Assembly (NCBI RefSeq): GCF_019844075.1
Contig: NZ_CP081964.1
Span: 2,914,001-2,978,000 of the forward strand
Origin: Curtobacterium sp. TC1
GTDB lineage: Bacteria; Actinomycetota; Actinomycetes; Actinomycetales; Microbacteriaceae
Direction of reading: 5' to 3'
DNA: 64,000 bases
The position numbers and the translations under genes are program-made. The notes below the pieces were generated by a model. That model was not told the DNA's origin and did no database searches. It saw only the letters and a program-made list of their open reading frames with translations. Below, piece after piece: positions 10,141 to 19,011 of this stretch. The first letter of the stretch is position 1, and the number at the start of each line of letters is the position of its first letter.

Positions 10141-10550
10141 CTTCCACGACGCGCCGCTCACGTCCGCCGGGGTTCCACGACTCGCCGCACACGATCCGCC
10201 GAGGTTCCACGACTCGCCGCACACGATCCGCCGAGATTCCACGACTCGCCGCACACGATCCGCCGAGGTTCCACGACTCGCCGCACACGATCCGCCGAGG
10301 TTCCACGACGCGCCGCTCACGTCCGCCGAGGTTCCATGGACGCGCGCTTCAGCGACCGAGGTTCCGAAATCTCGGAAGCTCGGGATACGAGCTGGCGGGA
10401 CGGAATGCGCCCTCGACGGGACCGGTCTGGGACGCCGCCGTCCCCGCCCGGCCCCGGTCGCCGAGGTTCCACGACTCGCCGCACGCGATCCGCCGAGGTT
10501 CCACGAACGCGCGCTGCGAGCGCCGAGATTCCGAGATTTTGGAACCTCGG
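10141..10550. repeat. Tandem array of degenerate 30-32 bp repeats
   Basis: The core CCGAGGTTCCACGA recurs with TTCC at 10142, 10173, 10205, 10237, 10269, 10301, 10332, 10362, then 10467, 10499 and 10529. Spacing is exactly 32 for the central copies and 30-31 for variants. Two unit types exist: one continuing CTCGCCGCACACGATCCG, the other CGCGCCGCTCACGTCCG. No unique spacers lie between units, so it is not CRISPR. The unit is dyad-capable through CCGAGGTTCC/GGAACCTCGG. Confidence 0.85.
10523..10550. terminator. Hairpin closing the repeat array
   Basis: CCGAGATTCC (10523-10532) and GGAACCTCGG (10541-10550) pair with one mismatch around an 8-nt loop. Read on the minus strand it lies 30 bases past the stop of the phosphodiesterase gene and the loop side gives AAAATCTC, so it is a fair terminator for that gene built from the repeat core. 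Confidence 0.55.
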
Positions 10551-11542: not shown

Positions 11543-12952
11543 TCAGGCGCGGACCCGGCGGGCGGGGCGGACGGTGTCCCCCGCTGTGCGGCTCATCAGG
11601 ATGCCCTCGACGCACGCGACGGCGAGCAGCGCCGCGATGACCCAGAACGCAACGGTGTACGGGCCGTCGCCACCGAGCCCACCGGCCGCACGGATGACGA
11701 CCGCGGCGACGGCGACGCCGAAGCCGGCGGCGGTCTGCTGCAGCGTCGACGAGAGGGTGTTCGCGGGGGTCATGTCGGCCTGCTCGACGTCGGCGAAGGC
11801 GATGGTGTTGTACGCCGTGAACCCGACGGAACGGGCGGCTCCGCTGACGACGAGCAGCACGGCCAGCAGCCAGAACGGGGTGTCCTCGGTCATGAAGGCC
11901 ATCGCGACGACGGTCAGCGCCGCGATCGCACTCGACACGATGATCACCGGGCGGTACCCGAACCAGCGCAGGAACGGGGTCGTCATCGGCTTGATACCGA
12001 GGTTGCCGACGAAGACCCACAGCACGGCGGACCCGGCGAGCACGGCACTCCAGCCCCAGGCGTCCTGGAACAGCAGCGGGAGCACGAACGGCACCGCGGA
12101 GACCGCCAGCCGGAACAGGCTGCCGCCGGCGTGCGACACCCGGAAGGTCTCGAGCCGGAACGCCTCGAGTCCCATGATCGGGTGCGGTGCCCGGCGGAAG
12201 TGCCGGATCGCGAACCAGCAGCAGACGGCTCCGACGACGCCGGACACGATGACGGCCAGGACCGGGATGACGTCGAGCGCGAGCAGGGACGCCATCACGA
12301 CGAGCGACCCGAGGCCGAAGCACGCCAGCAACGACCCGAACCAGTCGAACGGCACGCGCTGCGCCGCGCGCTCCTGCGGGACGAGCACGAGCGCGGCGAC
12401 GAACGCGATGACGCCGAGCGGGATGTTGATCAGGAAGATCCAGTGCCACGTGAGGGTGTCGACGAGCACGCCGCCGATGAACGGGGCGATGATCGGCGCG
12501 GCCAGCGCCGGCCAGGTCAGGATCGCGATGGCCGTGACGAGCTGCTCGCGGCCGGCGCTCCGCAGCACGACGAGCCGGCCGACGGGCACCATGAGCGCAC
12601 CGCCGAGCCCCTGCAGGATGCGCCAGAGCGTCAGGTCGACGAGGCCGGTCGACATCGCGCACAGCGCGGACGCGATCGTGAAGAGGGCGATCGCGCCCGC
12701 GAAGACCGTGCGGGACCCGATCCGGTCGGTGAGCCAGCCCGAGACGGGGATGAAGACCGCCAGCGTGACCAGGTAGGCGGTGATCGCGACGCCGACGGCG
12801 GCGGAGTCGACGCCGAGGTCGCGTCCCATCGCCGGTGCTGCGGTCGCCAGGATCGTGCCGTCGAGGAGCTCCATGAAGAAGGTGCCCGCCACGAGCACGG
12901 CGACCGCCGTGCTGCCCGTCCGTCGTCTGGGTGTCGTCGTCATCGTCGCCAT
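11543..12952 (-). CDS. MFS transporter, DHA2-type
   Basis: 469-residue membrane protein with 12-14 predicted helices. LDGTILATAAPAMGRDLG after helix 1, the motif-A-like GWLTDRIGSRTVF loop and GLGGALMVPVGR in helix 4 mark the EmrB/QacA-type DHA2 group. It diverges from the sugar-acid cluster across a 160-bp spacer holding an IclR-like site, so it may export or import a compound linked to that cluster; the family usually exports drugs. Confidence 0.87.
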   Translation of the reverse strand: MATMTTTPRRRTGSTAVAVLVAGTFFMELLDGTILATAAPAMGRDLGVDSAAVGVAITAYLVTLAVFIPVSGWLTDRIGSRTVFAGAIALFTIASALCAMSTGLVDLTLWRILQGLGGALMVPVGRLVVLRSAGREQLVTAIAILTWPALAAPIIAPFIGGVLVDTLTWHWIFLINIPLGVIAFVAALVLVPQERAAQRVPFDWFGSLLACFGLGSLVVMASLLALDVIPVLAVIVSGVVGAVCCWFAIRHFRRAPHPIMGLEAFRLETFRVSHAGGSLFRLAVSAVPFVLPLLFQDAWGWSAVLAGSAVLWVFVGNLGIKPMTTPFLRWFGYRPVIIVSSAIAALTVVAMAFMTEDTPFWLLAVLLVVSGAARSVGFTAYNTIAFADVEQADMTPANTLSSTLQQTAAGFGVAVAAVVIRAAGGLGGDGPYTVAFWVIAALLAVACVEGILMSRTAGDTVRPARRVRA

Positions 12953-13021
12953 GTCGCGTCAAAGGCTATGCCCACCGCGGCGTCACGCGACGATCCGCGT
13001 CGCAAGCTTCCGCCGCCTTGT

Positions 13022-13044
13022 TGTGCATTGCAGAATGATGCGCA
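13022..13044. promoter_or_regulatory. Candidate IclR-family operator, divergent spacer
   Basis: Contains GCATTGCAGAATG (13025-13037), which recurs with two C/T changes at 18996 before ridA, the other end of the cluster. It is also flanked by TGTGCAT (13022) and ATGCGCA (13038), an imperfect dyad. Site is about 76 bp before the PLP enzyme start and about 73 bp before the MFS start. The link to the IclR protein encoded inside the cluster is inferred. Confidence 0.5.
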
Positions 13045-13112
13045 CCAGCGCGTTGCCCTGGCGGTCCGCCGAGCGGGAGCGTGGGGGCAGCGCGACGACA
13101 GGAGGCCCACCG

Positions 13113-14324
13113 ATGACCGACGCCGACACGACGACCGGGACCGTGACCACGAAGGGCGCCTGGGATCCGGCAGCGAGCACGCCGCACCACGTCCTCGACC
13201 ACGCCCACCTGCCCGTGATGACCCTGCGCGAGTCCGCCCTGGCGAACAACACCGCCGTCATGCAGGCCTACGTCGACCGGCACGGCCTGCTGTTCGCGCC
13301 GCACATGAAGACCCACATGGCGCCGGACCTCGCCGCGCGGCAGATCGACGCCGGGGCCTGGGGCGTCACGGTCGCATCCGTCCAGCAGGCGATGGTCGCG
13401 TGGGAGCACGGCGTGCACCGCATCCTCGTCGCGAACGAGGTCCTCGACCCCGCCGGCCTCGCCTGGCTCGCGTCCCGGCGCACGGTCGACCCGGACGCCG
13501 ACGTCCTCTGCTACGTCGACTCCGCCGCGGGTGTCACCGCCGCGGTCGCCGCACAGGGGGCCGTCGGCGGCGAGCTGCACGTCCTGGTCGAACTCGGGTT
13601 CCCGGGCGGCCGCACCGGGGTCCGCTCCCCTGACGACGCGCGTGCCCTCGCGCGCCTCGCCCACGACGCCGGACTCGCGCTCCGCGGTGTCTCCGGGTAC
13701 GAGGGCGGTCTGCCCGGCGTCGACGCTGCACGCGGGTACGTCGACGGCGTGCTCGACGTCGCCGAGGACGTCCGCGGGCTCGTCGACGGTCGCGGGCTGC
13801 TCAGCATGGGCGGCAGCGCCTGGTTCGACGCCGTCGTCGACGCCGTGGCGCGACGCACCGACGACCTCGACGTGCTGCTGCGTTCGGGTGCGTACCTGAC
13901 CCACGACGACGGGTTCTACGCCGATCGCACGCCGTTCGGCCGGCACCCGGCCGAGGGATCGCTCGTCGCCGCGATCGAGGTGTGGGGACGCGTCACGTCC
14001 TGCCCCGAGCCCGGGCTCGCCCTCGTCGCGGTCGGGAAGCGCGACATCTCCTTCGACGAAGGGCTGCCGGTCGTGCGGGCGGTCCGGCCAGGAGGCACGG
14101 CGGGCGCCGCGCAGGTCGTCCCACCACCCGGGGCGGTCACCGTCACCCGCCTCGACGACCAGCACTGCTACCTGGCGCTGGCGGACGGGGCCCCCGAGCT
14201 CACGCCCGGCGACGTCGTCGTGTTCGGCATCTCGCACCCCTGCACGGTGTTCGACAAGTGGCGGCAGGTGCACGTGCTCGCCGACGACGACACCGTGCTC
14301 CGGACGATCGCGACGTGGTTCTGA
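13113..14324 (+). CDS. D-serine/D-threonine-type PLP dehydratase (DSD family), candidate D-glucosaminate ammonia-lyase
   Basis: 403 residues, fold-type III PLP enzyme (alanine-racemase-like barrel) with the C-terminal D-serine dehydratase-like domain. PHMKTHM places the PLP-binding Lys at residue 66; GISHPCTVFDKW near 376-388 supplies the His-x-Cys metal site of this family. Members eliminate ammonia from D-amino acids or related 2-amino acids. Because KDG kinase, KDPG aldolase, an N-acyl-D-amino-acid deacylase and RidA are its neighbours, I infer the substrate may be D-glucosaminate giving 2-keto-3-deoxygluconate; D-threonine aldolase or D-serine deaminase are alternatives. AGGAGG precedes the ATG; its stop overlaps the iclR start. 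Confidence 0.85.
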   Translation: MTDADTTTGTVTTKGAWDPAASTPHHVLDHAHLPVMTLRESALANNTAVMQAYVDRHGLLFAPHMKTHMAPDLAARQIDAGAWGVTVASVQQAMVAWEHGVHRILVANEVLDPAGLAWLASRRTVDPDADVLCYVDSAAGVTAAVAAQGAVGGELHVLVELGFPGGRTGVRSPDDARALARLAHDAGLALRGVSGYEGGLPGVDAARGYVDGVLDVAEDVRGLVDGRGLLSMGGSAWFDAVVDAVARRTDDLDVLLRSGAYLTHDDGFYADRTPFGRHPAEGSLVAAIEVWGRVTSCPEPGLALVAVGKRDISFDEGLPVVRAVRPGGTAGAAQVVPPPGAVTVTRLDDQHCYLALADGAPELTPGDVVVFGISHPCTVFDKWRQVHVLADDDTVLRTIATWF

Positions 14325-15169
14325 TGCGCGCGACCACCGCTGTCCCGGTGCCGACCGACGGCGACGGACCCGCGCGCAACGCTGCGCTGTCGCTGCGCCG
14401 CGGGCTCCGCCTGCTCGACTGCATCGCCGACCGCACCCGCAGCGGCGCGGTGTCCGTGAGCCTGTCCGTGCTGGCCACCGAGCTCGGCACGTCGAAGTCG
14501 ACGGTGCTCCGGCTGACCGCCCCGATGCTCGAGAACGACCTGCTGCGCCGCACCCCGGACGCCGGGTTCACGCTCGGGCTCGGCGCCCTGCTGCTCGGGC
14601 AGAGCTACCTCGAGGGCATCGACCTGCGCTCCGCCGCCGCACCGTTCCTGCGCCGGACCGCGGAGCAGACCGGGCTGACGTGCCACCTCGTGGTGCCGGA
14701 CGGCACCGACATCGTCTACGTCGACAAGGTCGAGACCCGCGGCACGGTGCGGATGGGGTCGCGCATCGGCAACCGCCTGCCCATGCGGAACACCGCCTCC
14801 GGCAAGGCGATCGTCGCGTTCGGCGAACCGGAACTGCTCGACCGCGTGCTCGCCGAACCGGCCCAGGTCATGACGGAGCACACCATCACCGACGACGACC
14901 GCTGGCGGCACGAGGTCGACCGCACGCACGGTCGCGGGTACGGCATCGACGACCGCGAGAACGAACCGGACATCCGGTGCGTCGCCGCCCCGGTGTTCGA
15001 CCACGCGAACCAGGTGGTCGGCGCGATGAGCATCTCGGGGCTCGCGTCGCGGTTCCCCGCAGCCGCGGTCCGCGAACTCGGCGACGGCGTCGTGCGGACC
15101 GCGCACGAGATCTCGGTCGCGCTGGGGTCCTCGTCGGCGCAGCTCGCACTCGCGCGGGGTGCCCGGTGA
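14324..15169 (+). CDS. IclR-family transcriptional regulator
   Basis: 281 residues: N-terminal winged helix (about 20-85, with LSVLATELGTSKSTVLRL as the recognition region) and a C-terminal IclR effector domain containing RNTASGKAIVAF and GIDDRENEPDIRCVAAPVFD. IclR proteins near KDG/KDPG genes commonly sense sugar-acid intermediates. It is embedded between the dehydratase (1-nt overlap) and the kinase (4-nt overlap), so it is part of the operon and probably controls it through the sites at 13022 and 18994. Confidence 0.92.
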   Translation: MRATTAVPVPTDGDGPARNAALSLRRGLRLLDCIADRTRSGAVSVSLSVLATELGTSKSTVLRLTAPMLENDLLRRTPDAGFTLGLGALLLGQSYLEGIDLRSAAAPFLRRTAEQTGLTCHLVVPDGTDIVYVDKVETRGTVRMGSRIGNRLPMRNTASGKAIVAFGEPELLDRVLAEPAQVMTEHTITDDDRWRHEVDRTHGRGYGIDDRENEPDIRCVAAPVFDHANQVVGAMSISGLASRFPAAAVRELGDGVVRTAHEISVALGSSSAQLALARGAR

Positions 15170-16149
15170 CCGGCTCGGTGCTGACGTTCGGCGAGACGAT
15201 GCTGCTCCTGACCGGGCGCGACGTCGGTGCGGTGCCGGACCTGGAGCACATGCGGGTCGACACCGGCGGAGCCGAGAGCAACGTCGCGATCGGTCTGGTC
15301 CGCGCCGGGGTGCCGGCCACGTGGCTCGGTCGGGTCGGCACGGACCCCGCCGGCGACCGGGTCACCGCCGACATCGGGAAGGAAGGCGTCGACGTGCTCG
15401 CCGTCCCGGACGCCGAACGCTCCACCGGCATCATGATGAAGGAGCGGCTGCTCGACGGCCGCACGCGGGTCACCTACCACCGCCGGGGTTCGGCCGGGTC
15501 GGCGCTGACGGCGACCGACCTGCCCGGCAGCATCGTCGAGACGGCGGCGCTCGTGCACGTCACGGGCATCACCCTCGCGCTCTCCGAGTCCGCGCGGGAC
15601 ACCGTGACCGCGGCCCTCGACCGGGCGTCCGCCGCCGGCGTGCCGGTGTCCTTCGACGTCAACCACCGGCCGAAGCTCATCAGCGCCGACACCGCACGTG
15701 ACCGGTACCGGGCCGTCGCCGCCCGCTCCGCGGTGGTCTTCGCCGGGGACGACGAGGCACGGCTCGTGCTCGGCCGTGACGAGCACGACGCCGACGCCGA
15801 CGAGGAATCGCTCGCGCACGAGCTCGCCGCACTGGGACGGGGCCGCGCGGTCGTGAAGCTCGGCTCCCGCGGTGCCGTGGCGTCGATCGACGGCGTGTTC
15901 CTCCGGCGACCCGCGACCCCGGTGCGCGTCGTCGACCCGGTCGGTGCCGGTGACGCCTTCGTCGCGGGGTGGCTCGCAGCGAGCCTGGGCGGAGCGGACC
16001 CTGCCGAGGCGCTCGACCGAGCCGCCGACGCCGGCGCACTCGCCTGCACCGTCGAGAGCGACTGGCGCCGCCCGGACCCCGAGGCCCTGCACCACGCTCC
16101 GGACCCGTCGGACACCGACCACGCCGTGCACGACCGCGTCGACCGCTGA
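15166..16149 (+). CDS. kdgK: PfkB-family sugar kinase, probable 2-keto-3-deoxygluconate kinase
   Basis: 327 residues. GGAESNVAIGLVRAG is the N-terminal PfkB region and DPVGAGDAFVAG (about 256-267) is the second PfkB signature with the catalytic Asp. Immediately followed by KDPG aldolase, so phosphorylation of 2-keto-3-deoxygluconate to KDPG is the best reading. The GTG overlaps the iclR stop as GTGA. A 40-bp gap separates it from the aldolase gene. Confidence 0.88.
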   Translation: MTGSVLTFGETMLLLTGRDVGAVPDLEHMRVDTGGAESNVAIGLVRAGVPATWLGRVGTDPAGDRVTADIGKEGVDVLAVPDAERSTGIMMKERLLDGRTRVTYHRRGSAGSALTATDLPGSIVETAALVHVTGITLALSESARDTVTAALDRASAAGVPVSFDVNHRPKLISADTARDRYRAVAARSAVVFAGDDEARLVLGRDEHDADADEESLAHELAALGRGRAVVKLGSRGAVASIDGVFLRRPATPVRVVDPVGAGDAFVAGWLAASLGGADPAEALDRAADAGALACTVESDWRRPDPEALHHAPDPSDTDHAVHDRVDR

Positions 16150-16189
16150 CGCCGTGCCTGCCGAACACCACCACTCGAGGAAGCGCACC

Positions 16190-16849
16190 ATGACGAACGA
16201 CACCACGAGCACCGAGCAGCACGCCGGTGCGCGGCACCGCCACCAGGCCGGACCGGCGATCGCGATCCTCCGCGGCGGCACCGGCGACCACGTCGAGGCC
16301 GTCGTCGCCACCCTGGTCGAGTCCGGCGTGACCGCGATCGAGATCACCACGAACACCCCGCGGTGGCGCGAGGGCATCGCGTGGGCGGTCGAGCGGTACG
16401 GTTCCGCGGCGTCGATCGGCGTCGGCACCGTGCTCGACGTCCGCCAGCTCGACGAGGCCGCCGCGGCCGGAGCATCGTTCGCGGTGAGCCCGCACCTCGA
16501 CGCCGAACTCGGCGAGCGCGCACACGAGCGTGGCCTCGGCTGGTACCCCGGTGCCGCGACCCCGACCGAGATCGTCCGCGCGTGGCGGCTCGGTGCCCGT
16601 GCGGTGAAGGTGTTCCCGGCGGCGCAGCTCGGCGGACCCGCGTTCCTGCGGCAGGTCATGGCACCGCTCGACTTCGTCGACGTGATCCCGACCGGTGGCA
16701 TCGGGGTCGACGACGCCGCGGACTACCTGGCCGCCGGGGCGGTCGCCGTCGGGCTCGGTTCCCCGCTCGTCGGCGACGCGCTGACCTCGGGCGACCTCGA
16801 CGCCCTGCGTGCGCGGGCCGGCCGCCTCGTCGCGGCGCTCGACCGATGA
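16190..16849 (+). CDS. eda: 2-keto-3-deoxy-6-phosphogluconate (KDPG) aldolase
   Basis: 219 residues, class I aldolase cleaving KDPG to pyruvate and glyceraldehyde 3-phosphate. Catalytic Glu is at residue 51 in TAIEITTNTP and the Schiff-base Lys at 140 in ARAVKVFPAAQLGG; GVGTVLD and IPTGGIG are further family blocks. An N-terminal extension of about 20 residues precedes the usual start; the ATG at 16190 is the only plausible one. Its stop overlaps the deacylase start by 4 nt (ATGA). Confidence 0.93.
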   Translation: MTNDTTSTEQHAGARHRHQAGPAIAILRGGTGDHVEAVVATLVESGVTAIEITTNTPRWREGIAWAVERYGSAASIGVGTVLDVRQLDEAAAAGASFAVSPHLDAELGERAHERGLGWYPGAATPTEIVRAWRLGARAVKVFPAAQLGGPAFLRQVMAPLDFVDVIPTGGIGVDDAADYLAAGAVAVGLGSPLVGDALTSGDLDALRARAGRLVAALDR

Positions 16850-18480
16850 CCGTCCCGGGGAGCACGACCGGCGGTCCGGTCCTGCTGCGCGGCGGGTCCG
16901 TGCTCGGCGTGGACGGCGCTCCGGTGCGCGCCGACGTCCTCGTCGCCGACGCCGTGATCCGCGCCCTCGGCCCGGACCTCGACGCCCCCGTCGGCGCGCA
17001 CGTGATCGACTGCGACGGTCGCCTGGTGCTGCCGGGCTTCGTCGACGCGCACTCGCACGCCGGTTCGCTCGTGTTCGACGAGGGGGTGCAGCTCGCGCTC
17101 CTGCGGCAGGGCGTGACCACGATCGTGACCGGACAGGACGGCGTCGGGCCGGCCCCGGGCGACGGTTCGTACGCCGCCACGTACTTCGCCGCCATCGACG
17201 GCCCCCACCCGGCGTACCGGGGTGGCGGGGTCGACGGGCTGCTGACGACCTACGACGGCACCACCCCGATCAACGTCGCGACGCTCGTCCCCGCCGGCAC
17301 GGTCCGTCACCAGGTCATGGGCGACGACCCGGGGCCGGCGGACAGCGCACAGCTGGCGGCGATGCGCGAGCTCGTGCGGGACGGCCTCGCGGACGGAGCG
17401 GTCGGTCTGGCGACGGGGCTCGACTACGTCCCCGGCCTGTTCGCCGACACCGCCGAGCTCGCGGCGCTCTGCACCGAGGTCGCCGCCGTCGACGGCCTGT
17501 ACGTCTCGCACATGCGCGGTGGCTACGAGGGCAACGCCCGCGCCGGCCTCGACGAGATCGCCGCCATCGTGCGTGGGTCGGGTGTCCGGGCGCACGTCTC
17601 CCACCTGCACGCCCCCGTCGACCTCGCGGTGACCGCACTCGCCGCGCTCGAGGCCGAGGGCGCCCCGATGTCGTTCGACGCCTACCCGTACTCGCGCGGC
17701 TGCACGATCCTGTCGATGCTCCTCCTGCCCGCGGCCCTCGCCCGGCCCGGCACCGAGGACCTCGCCCACGCGATCGCCGACGACGGGGGTCGCGCCGCGG
17801 TCCGTGCCGCCGTGCTCGACCGCGTGCTGTCCCGCGCTGACCTCGGCACCGGGTGGGCCGAGCAGATCACGCTGTCGCACGTGCCCGCCGCCGAGTTCCA
17901 CGCGCTGCAGGGACGGACCCTCGCCGACGCCGCCGAGGCGACCGGGACGGATCCGGTGGACCTGGCGCTCGACGTCCTGGTCGACTCGGCGCTGCAGGTC
18001 ACCGCCGTGATGCGCGTGCCCCGACCCCGGACCGCCGACGACCTCGCGCCGCTCTTCCGGCTGCCCGGGCACACGGCCGGGTCCGACGGCATCTTCGTGG
18101 GCACGCACCCGCACCCCCGGGCGTACGGCACGTTCGCGCGCTACCTGCAGGACTTCGCGCGCACCGGGCTCCTGACGTGGTGCGAGGCCTCCCGGCACCT
18201 GTCGACGACCGCCGTCGAGCGACTCGGGCTCGGCCGACGCGGCTCGGTGGCGGTCGGGGCGGTCGCGGACCTGGTGGTCGTCGATCCCGATCGGGTGGCG
18301 GCGCAGTCGAGCTACGACGAACCGATGCGCCTGGCCGAGGGCATCGACGACGTCCTCGTCGCCGGCGTCCCCGTGCTCGTCGACGGTGCCCTGACGCACG
18401 CGACCCCCGGCGCCGGGCTGCGTCGCCGTCCGGGTCGGATCGACCACGAGCAGGGAGCAGCAGGCACCGGGGGCCGGTGA
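16846..18480 (+). CDS. N-acyl-D-amino-acid deacylase family amidohydrolase
   Basis: 544 residues of the D-aminoacylase/amidohydrolase type. Metal-site HxH lies in VDAHSHAG (His69, His71); LYVSHMRGGYEG and RAHVSHLHAP carry further ligands, and GSDGIFVGTHPHPRAYGTF is the conserved C-terminal block. In characterised D-aminoacylases a Cys follows the VTG turn (NCG); here the position reads VTGQDG (Gln97-Asp98), so the metal site may differ. In this operon it could remove an acetyl group from N-acetyl-D-glucosaminate, or hydrolyse N-acyl-D-amino acids. Final plus-strand gene of the cluster. Confidence 0.85.
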   Translation: MTVPGSTTGGPVLLRGGSVLGVDGAPVRADVLVADAVIRALGPDLDAPVGAHVIDCDGRLVLPGFVDAHSHAGSLVFDEGVQLALLRQGVTTIVTGQDGVGPAPGDGSYAATYFAAIDGPHPAYRGGGVDGLLTTYDGTTPINVATLVPAGTVRHQVMGDDPGPADSAQLAAMRELVRDGLADGAVGLATGLDYVPGLFADTAELAALCTEVAAVDGLYVSHMRGGYEGNARAGLDEIAAIVRGSGVRAHVSHLHAPVDLAVTALAALEAEGAPMSFDAYPYSRGCTILSMLLLPAALARPGTEDLAHAIADDGGRAAVRAAVLDRVLSRADLGTGWAEQITLSHVPAAEFHALQGRTLADAAEATGTDPVDLALDVLVDSALQVTAVMRVPRPRTADDLAPLFRLPGHTAGSDGIFVGTHPHPRAYGTFARYLQDFARTGLLTWCEASRHLSTTAVERLGLGRRGSVAVGAVADLVVVDPDRVAAQSSYDEPMRLAEGIDDVLVAGVPVLVDGALTHATPGAGLRRRPGRIDHEQGAAGTGGR

Positions 18481-18504
18481 GGCTTCACACAGCCTGCCCG
18501 GTCG

Positions 18505-18906
18505 TCACGAGGCGCTGGGCAGCACCGCGACGACGTCGATCTCGACCAGGATGTTCGCCAGGTGCGACTGCACGGTCGTGCGGACCGGGTACGGCTGCGA
18601 GAAGTGCTTCGCGTACTCCTCGTTGAAGGCCGGGAAGTCACGGTCGGAGTGCTCGAGGTGCACCGTGGACTTCACGACGTCGTCGAGGGTGGCACCGTGC
18701 TCGGCGAGGACCGCTGCGACGTTGGCCAGCACCTGGGCGGTCTGTCCGGCCACGTCGTCGGCGATCGCGCCGGTGGCGGGGTCCTGCGGGCCGAACCCGG
18801 CGGTGTAGATGAAACCGTTGGCGACGATGCCCTGGCTGTAGGGTCCGGCGGGCTTCGGGGCGTCGTCGGTCACGATGGCGGTCTTCGGCGCGGTGGGGTT
18901 CGGCAC
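18505..18906 (-). CDS. ridA: RidA/YjgF enamine deaminase
   Basis: 133 residues. AGPYSQGI near the start and YPVRTTVQ with the catalytic Arg are RidA-family hallmarks. RidA proteins hydrolyse 2-aminoacrylate and similar enamine/imine products released by PLP dehydratases, which fits its place facing the dehydratase cluster, convergent with the deacylase (24-bp gap). The GTG at 18906 is chosen over further upstream ATG because CAGGAG precedes it and the extension is unlike the family. Confidence 0.9.
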   Translation of the reverse strand: MPNPTAPKTAIVTDDAPKPAGPYSQGIVANGFIYTAGFGPQDPATGAIADDVAGQTAQVLANVAAVLAEHGATLDDVVKSTVHLEHSDRDFPAFNEEYAKHFSQPYPVRTTVQSHLANILVEIDVVAVLPSAS

Positions 18907-18993
18907 GGTTGCTCCTGGGTTCGTCGGTCGTCGGCGGAGACTCCAGGCTAGGCGGAGGCCGTGCGGTGGCGCCGACCACACGACCGACGCTTT

Positions 18994-19011
18994 CCGCACT
19001 GCAGAACGCGG
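18994..19011. promoter_or_regulatory. Candidate IclR-family operator before ridA
   Basis: GCACTGCAGAACG (18996-19008) matches the 13-bp motif at 13025 at 11 of 13 positions, both differences being C/T. It is flanked by CCGC and GCGG. It sits about 90 bp before the ridA start, similar to the spacing at the other end of the cluster. Confidence 0.5.

Follow-up and report, generated by a model that had tools for sequence, protein, structure and literature searches.

Among the described systems, the one closest to the genes considered here is the ong cluster for the catabolism of N-acetyl-D-glucosaminate (GlcNAc1A). According to the passages of PMC9537276 used here, OngB, OngC and KdgK of Pseudoalteromonas prydzensis turn GlcNAc1A into 2-keto-3-deoxygluconate 6-phosphate (KDG-6-P) in vitro, the RidA gene is needed for growth of this bacterium on GlcNAc1A, OngC accepts D-serine and D-threonine too, the aldolase step is a hypothesis (kdgA being present in the Vibrio, Klebsiella and Serratia clusters), and the complete pathway is listed for Gammaproteobacteria and one betaproteobacterium. 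Here we examine a six-gene cluster in a 64,000-nucleotide stretch of the genome of Curtobacterium sp. TC1 (the whole stretch, G000:C3:2914001-2978000, is hereafter called the window), which we take to catabolise an N-acyl-2-amino-2-deoxy-aldonic acid, most likely GlcNAc1A (with a probability of roughly 0.6).

The window cluster resembles ong in its D-aminoacylase-like amidohydrolase (the proposed deacetylase), its deaminase of family PF14031, its PfkB-type kinase for 2-keto-3-deoxygluconate (KDG) and its RidA protein, and it holds a 2-keto-3-deoxy-6-phosphogluconate (KDPG) aldolase gene, as do the Vibrio, Klebsiella and Serratia clusters. Unlike ong, it has a deacylase on a separate branch (called GQDG below, after its metal turn) in which Asp replaces the zinc Cys and the pocket residues differ, a dehydratase on another branch and an IclR rather than a MurR/RpiR regulator; an SSS importer, a TonB receptor and GH20 are not among the six genes and their major facilitator superfamily (MFS) neighbour, the seven genes scanned for them (the rest of the window was profile-scanned only for metNI-like genes), and the genome has no lytic polysaccharide monooxygenase (LPMO) of family AA10. 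The subtype V amidohydrolases (D-aminoacylase 1m7j, N-acyl-D-glutamate deacylase 3gip) show sequence kinship to the window deacylase, which has their HxH, two metal His, catalytic Asp and carboxylate-binding Tyr and Arg, and departs from them in the Asp at the Cys ligand, in the His/Thr/Arg at the equivalent of Lys254 and in its sugar-acid gene neighbours. With the fold-III D-serine dehydratase-like deaminases (3gwq) the window dehydratase has in common the PF14031 domain and the PHxKT and SHPC motifs; unlike them, it stands in a context of sugar-acid catabolism. The D-glucosaminate dehydratase plus KDG pathway, with which we compare by its chemistry alone, performs the same reaction from free glucosaminate, whereas here a deacylase step precedes it.

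The pathway logic is already known; the deacylase lineage, the regulator and the transport differ here. In the open-licence PubMed Central literature we found no report of an actinobacterial version of the GlcNAc1A pathway or of the GQDG family. A haloarchaeal glucosaminate proposal (PMC12343721) is not the same, as the route it describes is phosphorylated and relies on a different lyase (its main text never uses the word 'aminoacylase'), and in a paper on chitin in an Antarctic Arthrobacter (PMC13106269) the aminoacylase term stands in the reference list only.

Gene order, candidate regulon and predicted route

The six genes lie between positions 13113 and 18906 (Table 1), each being an open frame with one terminal stop (the start codons are our choice). 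Five of them, encoding the dehydratase, the IclR regulator, the kinase, the aldolase and the deacylase, form one tight operon, and ridA faces them. An earlier note on this DNA had claimed such a cluster, with overlaps of 1-4 nt, one 40-nt gap and a facing RidA; all six frames are present, their Pfam families are as claimed and the frame coordinates bear out the spacing, while the span it gave (13025-19011) covers the genes and has to be corrected at its ends, which run ~90-105 nt beyond the coding ends and nearly match two palindromes flanking the cluster (13021-13035 and 18992-19006). Curtobacterium is a bacterium of soil and plants, and the closest protein relatives and loci also come from this genus: in the 31 other Curtobacterium-type loci (of which one bears the title Microbacteriaceae bacterium and some are truncated at contig ends) a dehydratase was near in 29, a kinase in 29, an aldolase in 30, RidA in 30 and IclR in 29 (neighbour counts throughout refer to matches reaching 55 bits within 8 kb).

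The aldolase passes the eda model TIGR01182 (167.7 bits over a cut-off of 156.05), carries at residue 140 (protein P0004) a VKVFP motif whose lysine is presumably the Schiff-base lysine, and is the sole eda match of the genome. By profile search the genome has no 6-phosphogluconate dehydratase (Edd). Because its only ILVD_EDD protein is IlvD (729.7 over 618.15 for TIGR00110; 243.9 under 708.25 for the edd model), the aldolase is without the classical Entner-Doudoroff feeder and an ordinary Entner-Doudoroff role was rejected; the obvious supplier of its substrate is the adjoining kinase. This kinase has the KDG kinase 1v19 as its best solved relative (146 bits, with shared YxRxGSAGSAL, DVNxR and GAGDAF stretches). 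The dehydratase, the only PF14031 match of the genome, belongs to that family at 69.9 bits (cut-off 22) and finds its best solved relative in 3gwq, annotated as D-serine deaminase (238 bits); D-hydroxyaspartate aldolase BhcC (NF045642) was rejected as an identity for it, the score of 88 bits falling short of the cut-off of 690. From a D-configured 2-amino-3-hydroxy acid, a dehydratase of this kind yields a 2-keto-3-deoxy acid, and a kinase plus KDPG aldolase fit only where that acid is a sugar acid.

Aligning the regions before the dehydratase gene in Curtobacterium brought out a conserved palindrome, TTCTGCA-N-TGCAGAA (consensus TTCTGCANTGCAGAA), to which the two window sites, TTGTGCATTGCAGAA before the operon and TTCCGCACTGCAGAA before ridA, each have one mismatch. 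Throughout the 4.16-Mb genome, these are the only places at <=1 mismatch (against 0.086 estimated from base composition); allowing two mismatches adds two further places, and a reversed control pattern gave two. In shuffles of the window, the mean was 0.02 at <=2 mismatches and none of 100 had two. Within the Curtobacterium-type loci, our script found the palindrome before the dehydratase in 21/29 (a site of L004 labelled 'other' is probably a dehydratase site too, making 22/29), counts that are partly circular as the consensus was derived there, and before ridA in 8/29, to which this circularity does not apply. There was no other palindrome in 492 kb of Curtobacterium-type loci and a single one in 1.65 Mb of other loci. 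Since the palindrome precedes both, ridA is in the same candidate regulon as the operon, and we infer that the palindrome is a candidate operator bound by the IclR protein (all NCBIfam models for which stayed below cut-off). A regulon reaching a distant transporter was rejected, as the genome-wide scan gave none at <=1 mismatch; the single GntP permease of the genome sits outside the locus, with no palindrome at that stringency near it.

We reason that an N-acyl aminoaldonate would be imported and stripped of its acyl group by the GQDG amidohydrolase, after which the fold-III pyridoxal phosphate (PLP) enzyme would convert the free aminoaldonate into KDG by elimination of water and ammonia, with RidA hydrolysing the enamine/imine intermediate. 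The PfkB kinase is then predicted to form KDPG, and the aldolase to cleave it into pyruvate and glyceraldehyde 3-phosphate; the IclR protein would act on the operon and on ridA through their common palindrome.

The GQDG deacylases and their neighbourhoods

In the sections of PMC12017989 drawn on here, OngB-type deacetylases are described as a single new family that shares a conserved Cys site, and the zinc site of the P. prydzensis enzyme (PpOngB) as Cys97/His222/His252 (the other residue roles mentioned below are from the same source). The nearest solved relatives of the window deacylase are N-acyl-D-Glu deacylase, 9g5m, D-aminoacylase and PpOngB, about equal at 164-145 bits. The altered metal turn VTGQDG, already pointed out in the earlier note, is present (residues 94-99 of protein P0005) and is shared by the relatives rather than private: of the 120 best database relatives, 119 have the GQDG motif (the remaining one being unreadable to the pattern), and Asp98 replaces the zinc-binding Cys in 17/17 and 42/42 aligned relatives in two alignments. 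A mutated or dead turn was ruled out by this invariance. In an alignment of 49 GQDG sequences (seven rows with other or unread motifs omitted), read against a close OngB relative that likewise has Cys at position 97, the PpOngB residues His68, His70, Tyr194, His222, His252, Tyr285, Asp368 and Arg379 are identical in 49/49; the Asp in 49/49 is there by construction, the group being motif-defined, and the 17/17, 42/42 and 119/120 are the fairer figures. Judged by these alignments, the enzyme retains most of what is needed to bind an N-acyl alpha-amino carboxylate; its metal site has changed, and its side-chain pocket is distinct, Lys254 and other residues that contact the sugar having been replaced.

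In a deacylase tree (a thinned set of 84 rows, quick method, SH-aLRT only) the 49 GQDG rows split off together with a single GADG row at 91% (the 49 alone at 26%), and the OngB relatives, D-aminoacylase and N-acyl-D-glutamate deacylase make up an 11-row group (98%) without GQDG rows. Tree placement and residue comparison reject orthology of the window deacylase with OngB; if it acts on GlcNAc1A, it would have come to do so from a branch separate from that of OngB. The dehydratase tree (thinned to 62 rows, likewise quick and with SH-aLRT only) unites 3gwq with the proteobacterial deaminases, the ong-like ones included (87%), and places most actinobacterial rows in another group (96%, including one Pantoea and one Sinorhizobium row). 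The Curtobacterium dehydratases group with Nonomuraea and Sinorhizobium rows (97%), apart from a 96% group containing 40/41 other GQDG-linked dehydratases, a placement weakened by the meeting of long branches. Because they branch apart while the deacylases group together, it is likely that the dehydratase gene has been replaced in Curtobacterium (window 13113-14324; L082).

The neighbourhoods were compared over 80 deacylase-family loci from named genomes and metagenome-assembled genomes (MAGs), 13 plasmid-collection loci and 40 regions from 37/41 other genomes matching in a 396-genome sample of the phylum. Although the sample is biased (most loci came from GQDG-family searches, genera repeat, and the motif was unreadable in 11 rows, five in the Curtobacterium-type set), the cluster recurs across many genera, as the earlier note had wished to see compared: the loci fall into 24 groups including Curtobacterium, 18 of which have a kinase or aldolase in at least one row. 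Of the 68 non-Curtobacterium GQDG loci, 64 have a dehydratase near, 64 RidA, 42 a kinase and 39 an aldolase, with kinase or aldolase at 50; near 27 other amidohydrolases (19 GNCG, 2 with other motifs, 6 unread) kinase or aldolase was found once, as a weak match in a region that also has a GQDG gene (Fisher p 1.4e-10, the rows not being independent). The 27-row set omits the later ong-like loci L127, L128, L130 and L133, GNCG deacylases with a kinase, so that GQDG is a marker of the pathway only within the actinobacteria compared. Since gene orders differ widely, the association points to a functional link and not just to shared ancestry. Where a GQDG genome had no aldolase in the fetched region, Eda passed its cut-off elsewhere in 14/15.

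No single transporter family, for another sugar acid or otherwise, is always linked to the cluster. A GntP permease is near 10/68 GQDG loci (8/11 f5/g9 genomes, one f6 genome and the Tsukamurella locus L083, where RidA-IclR-kinase diverge from dehydratase-deacylase-aldolase-GntP). The Tsukamurella GntP passes the gluconate:H+ symporter model TIGR00791 (373.5 over 292.75); the gluconate/GntP equivalog models give it 381 to 239 bits and the DsdX model 220, all under their cut-offs. In the 49 non-Curtobacterium loci from named genomes and MAGs, a metabolite:H+ symporter (MHS) is near in 33 and a YheO-like PAS regulator near in 33; examples are L047 3339-4718 and L062 4441-5193, the best models for the symporter being metabolite/H+ symporter and shikimate transporter.

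Three variant loci, L057 (5542-10655, from a Geodermatophilaceae genome) and the Microbacteriaceae MAGs L070 (5791-11075) and L080 (5779-10955), bear on the substrate from another side. A carbohydrate-type ABC transporter is followed there by a divergent dehydratase, a short-chain dehydrogenase/reductase (SDR), a GQDG deacylase and a 7-bladed lactonase, with RidA placed, in L070 and L080, between the deacylase and lactonase genes and, in L057, ~2 kb further on, on the opposite strand (SDR and lactonase, PF10282, were assigned by profile in L057 and L070, and the L080 genes by a shared BLAST cluster). The L070 SDR passes the glucose 1-dehydrogenase subfamily model PRK07231 (235 over 215), and a SIS-domain gene adjoins the ABC genes in L070 (by profile) and in L080 (same cluster), which also has a ROK gene. 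Turning a sugar into an aldonate takes a dehydrogenase and a lactonase. We take the loci as independent support for an aldonate substrate and as a possible means of forming it without LPMO; they look like sites of intracellular oxidation of an amino sugar to its aldonate.

Some records stand beside this comparison. On a Comamonas plasmid, L085 (2-11835) combines KDPGal aldolase, KDGal kinase (Gal denoting the galactonate forms), RidA, a peptide-type ABC transporter, an amino acid deaminase, RpiR and a D-aminoacylase, and is perhaps a galactosaminate version of the ong route (our count scored it without kinase, which lies beyond 8 kb). A Microbacterium plasmid, L132 (5721-6603), has a PfkB kinase adjoining the dehydratase annotated in two pieces, probably broken in that record. 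L087 (G370) has a GQDG and a GNCG amidohydrolase separated by ~1 kb, and an Eda gene lies close to the end of that contig.

Evidence against and alternative substrates

Several observations weigh against catabolism of an N-acyl-aminoaldonate. The window deacylase keeps none of Lys254, Glu226, Ser290, Ser291 and Ser292 of PpOngB: over the 49 GQDG sequences the Lys254 column is His 39, Thr 9 and Arg 1, the Glu226 column is Gly/Tyr/Val, the Ser290 column is Gly in 48, and at Ser292 the window has Thr (Thr 31 and Ser 17 in the set); the column of Gln298, an OngB specificity residue, falls in a poorly aligning and untrusted region. The kinase scores 194 bits for the NCBIfam bifunctional KDG/KDGal kinase, far below the cut-off of 440, and given the breadth of OngC the dehydratase alone is no pointer to a sugar acid. 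Within 8 kb, 18/68 GQDG loci have neither kinase nor aldolase, the three SDR-lactonase loci among them. The GntP family includes the D-serine carrier DsdX, from which one gluconate model differs by a small score margin, and neither GntP nor MHS transporter occurs within 8 kb in the Curtobacterium-type loci. The AA10 LPMO is also missing from the genome (0 matches to PF03067).

The order of chemistry put forward in the earlier note (deacylase, ammonia-lyase, KDG kinase and KDPG aldolase, with RidA) nevertheless stands as the best-supported reading, drawing on the palindrome pair, the sole KDPG aldolase in a genome without Edd, the GntP or lactonase/dehydrogenase neighbours and the recurrence of the cluster. 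Its proposed substrate, N-acetyl-D-glucosaminate, is the most likely acid, with part of the probability left to a sister aldonate: the same chemistry could act on another epimer, N-acetyl-D-galactosaminate or some other N-acyl-aminoaldonate, the kinase and aldolase working on the matching 2-keto-3-deoxy acid. The top NCBIfam models of the kinase are indeed bifunctional KDG/KDGal kinases, the aldolase reaches 153 bits for the KDPGal aldolase subfamily (though below the cut-off of 207), and the annotated KDGal kinase and KDPGal aldolase of the Comamonas locus make such versions plausible. We consider the epimer unlikely all the same, as eda is the only cut-off that the aldolase passes, the kinase, among solved proteins, comes nearest to a KDG kinase and the known pathway of this kind uses GlcNAc1A.

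Catabolism of N-acyl-D-amino acids is more doubtful still. N-acyl-D-serine or -threonine would be the substrates, RidA would clear 2-aminoacrylate and the kinase and aldolase would serve an unrelated sugar acid, a reading which the D-aminoacylase and D-serine-dehydratase kinship, the broad specificity of OngC (in the same passages of PMC9537276), the 18/68 loci just mentioned and the frequent PAS regulator and metabolite:H+ symporter (33/49 each) would suit. It sits badly with the association of kinase and aldolase across several gene orders and families, with a sole eda lacking Edd, with a GntP nearer to gluconate carriers than to DsdX and with the SDR and lactonase loci. That a true ong cluster was acquired from proteobacteria would account for the same reaction set with RidA, and is very improbable in view of the 98% group of OngB relatives without GQDG rows, the window dehydratase lying outside the proteobacterial/ong group and in the 96% set, the IclR in place of RpiR, and the lack of SSS, TonB and GH20 among the six genes and the MFS neighbour. 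For chance adjacency, or a decaying cluster, we found no evidence, and overlapping reading frames, genus-wide conservation and the palindrome pair refute it.

Chitin, transport and other features

Under the preferred reading, that of N-acyl-aminoaldonate catabolism, the likeness to the marine oxidative chitin route mentioned in the earlier note holds for the order of reactions and fails for the deacylase, which is not of the OngB family; a chitin oxidation coupled to it in this organism is not supported, the genome lacking an AA10 LPMO. The genome does have GH18 and GH20 genes. In the 396-genome sample an LPMO occurs in 15 genomes, 11 of them f5/g9 and all 11 with a GQDG deacylase, an association confounded by one genus; 7/18 sampled GQDG genomes, that of the window included, are without LPMO (four matched genomes were not fetched). 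A cautious reading is that Curtobacterium imports oxidised ends made by others, or another N-acyl-aminoaldonate.

Should the reading hold, a GlcNAc1A route would be widespread in actinobacteria, with a separately arisen deacetylase and a different metal ligand, and some of its carriers would have no LPMO of their own; these bacteria would likely consume oxidised chitin ends released by others, and many 'N-acyl-D-amino-acid deacylase' labels would need correction. It would also provide an example, open to testing, of D-amino-acid enzymes that were recruited convergently to act on sugar acids. Going further, we tentatively propose, at somewhat less than even odds, that N-acetyl-aldonate deacetylases may have evolved a second time, and separately, in the GQDG branch, whose zinc Cys is replaced by Asp and which Actinobacteria may have recruited for the step done by OngB in marine Gammaproteobacteria, and that L057, L070 and L080, through their adjoining dehydrogenase and lactonase, may make the aldonate intracellularly from an imported amino sugar. 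N-acetyl amino sugars would then have an LPMO-independent oxidative, non-phosphorylating entry to the end of the Entner-Doudoroff pathway.

As for import in Curtobacterium, the MFS transporter divergent from the operon is a candidate. Its top NCBIfam model is MdtD (257.5 bits, under the cut-off of 426), and by tblastn (E<=1e-30) it was matched in 29/31 Curtobacterium-type loci, divergent from the dehydratase in 27, and in no fetched locus outside that set; a looser clustering grouped five further DHA2-like proteins with it.

Table 1. Genes and candidate operators of the cluster (positions in the window)
Feature	Position	Strand	Remarks
MFS transporter (DHA2/MdtD-like by profile), candidate co-regulated transporter	11543..12952	-	divergent from operon; Pfam MFS_1
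Palindrome TTGTGCATTGCAGAA, candidate IclR operator	13021..13035		between MFS gene and operon; 77 nt from dehydratase start
Fold-III PLP amino-acid deaminase/dehydratase (PF14031), proposed aminoaldonate ammonia-lyase (OngC-like step)	13113..14324	+	Pfam D-ser_dehydrat plus Ala_racemase_N
IclR-family regulator	14324..15169	+	1-nt overlap with dehydratase; Pfam IclR_C and HTH_IclR
PfkB sugar kinase, proposed 2-keto-3-deoxygluconate kinase	15166..16149	+	GTG start, 4-nt overlap; Pfam PfkB 161.5 bits
KDPG (KHG/KDPG) aldolase	16190..16849	+	40-nt gap after kinase; Pfam KDPG and KHG aldolase
GQDG-branch D-aminoacylase-like amidohydrolase, proposed N-acyl-aminoaldonate deacylase	16846..18480	+	4-nt overlap; Pfam Amidohydro_3
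RidA family protein	18505..18906	-	GTG start; Pfam Ribonuc_L-PSP
Palindrome TTCCGCACTGCAGAA, candidate IclR operator of ridA	18992..19006		one mismatch to consensus; 85 nt before ridA start

Elsewhere in the window, downstream of metNI-like ABC genes, a 32-bp unit is repeated in tandem (6.2 copies, 94% matches) at 10142-10336 (and 10463-10482). It is a dispersed REP-like element, the 20-bp core of the repeat being found at 19 genomic places at <=1 mismatch, against none for a reversed control.

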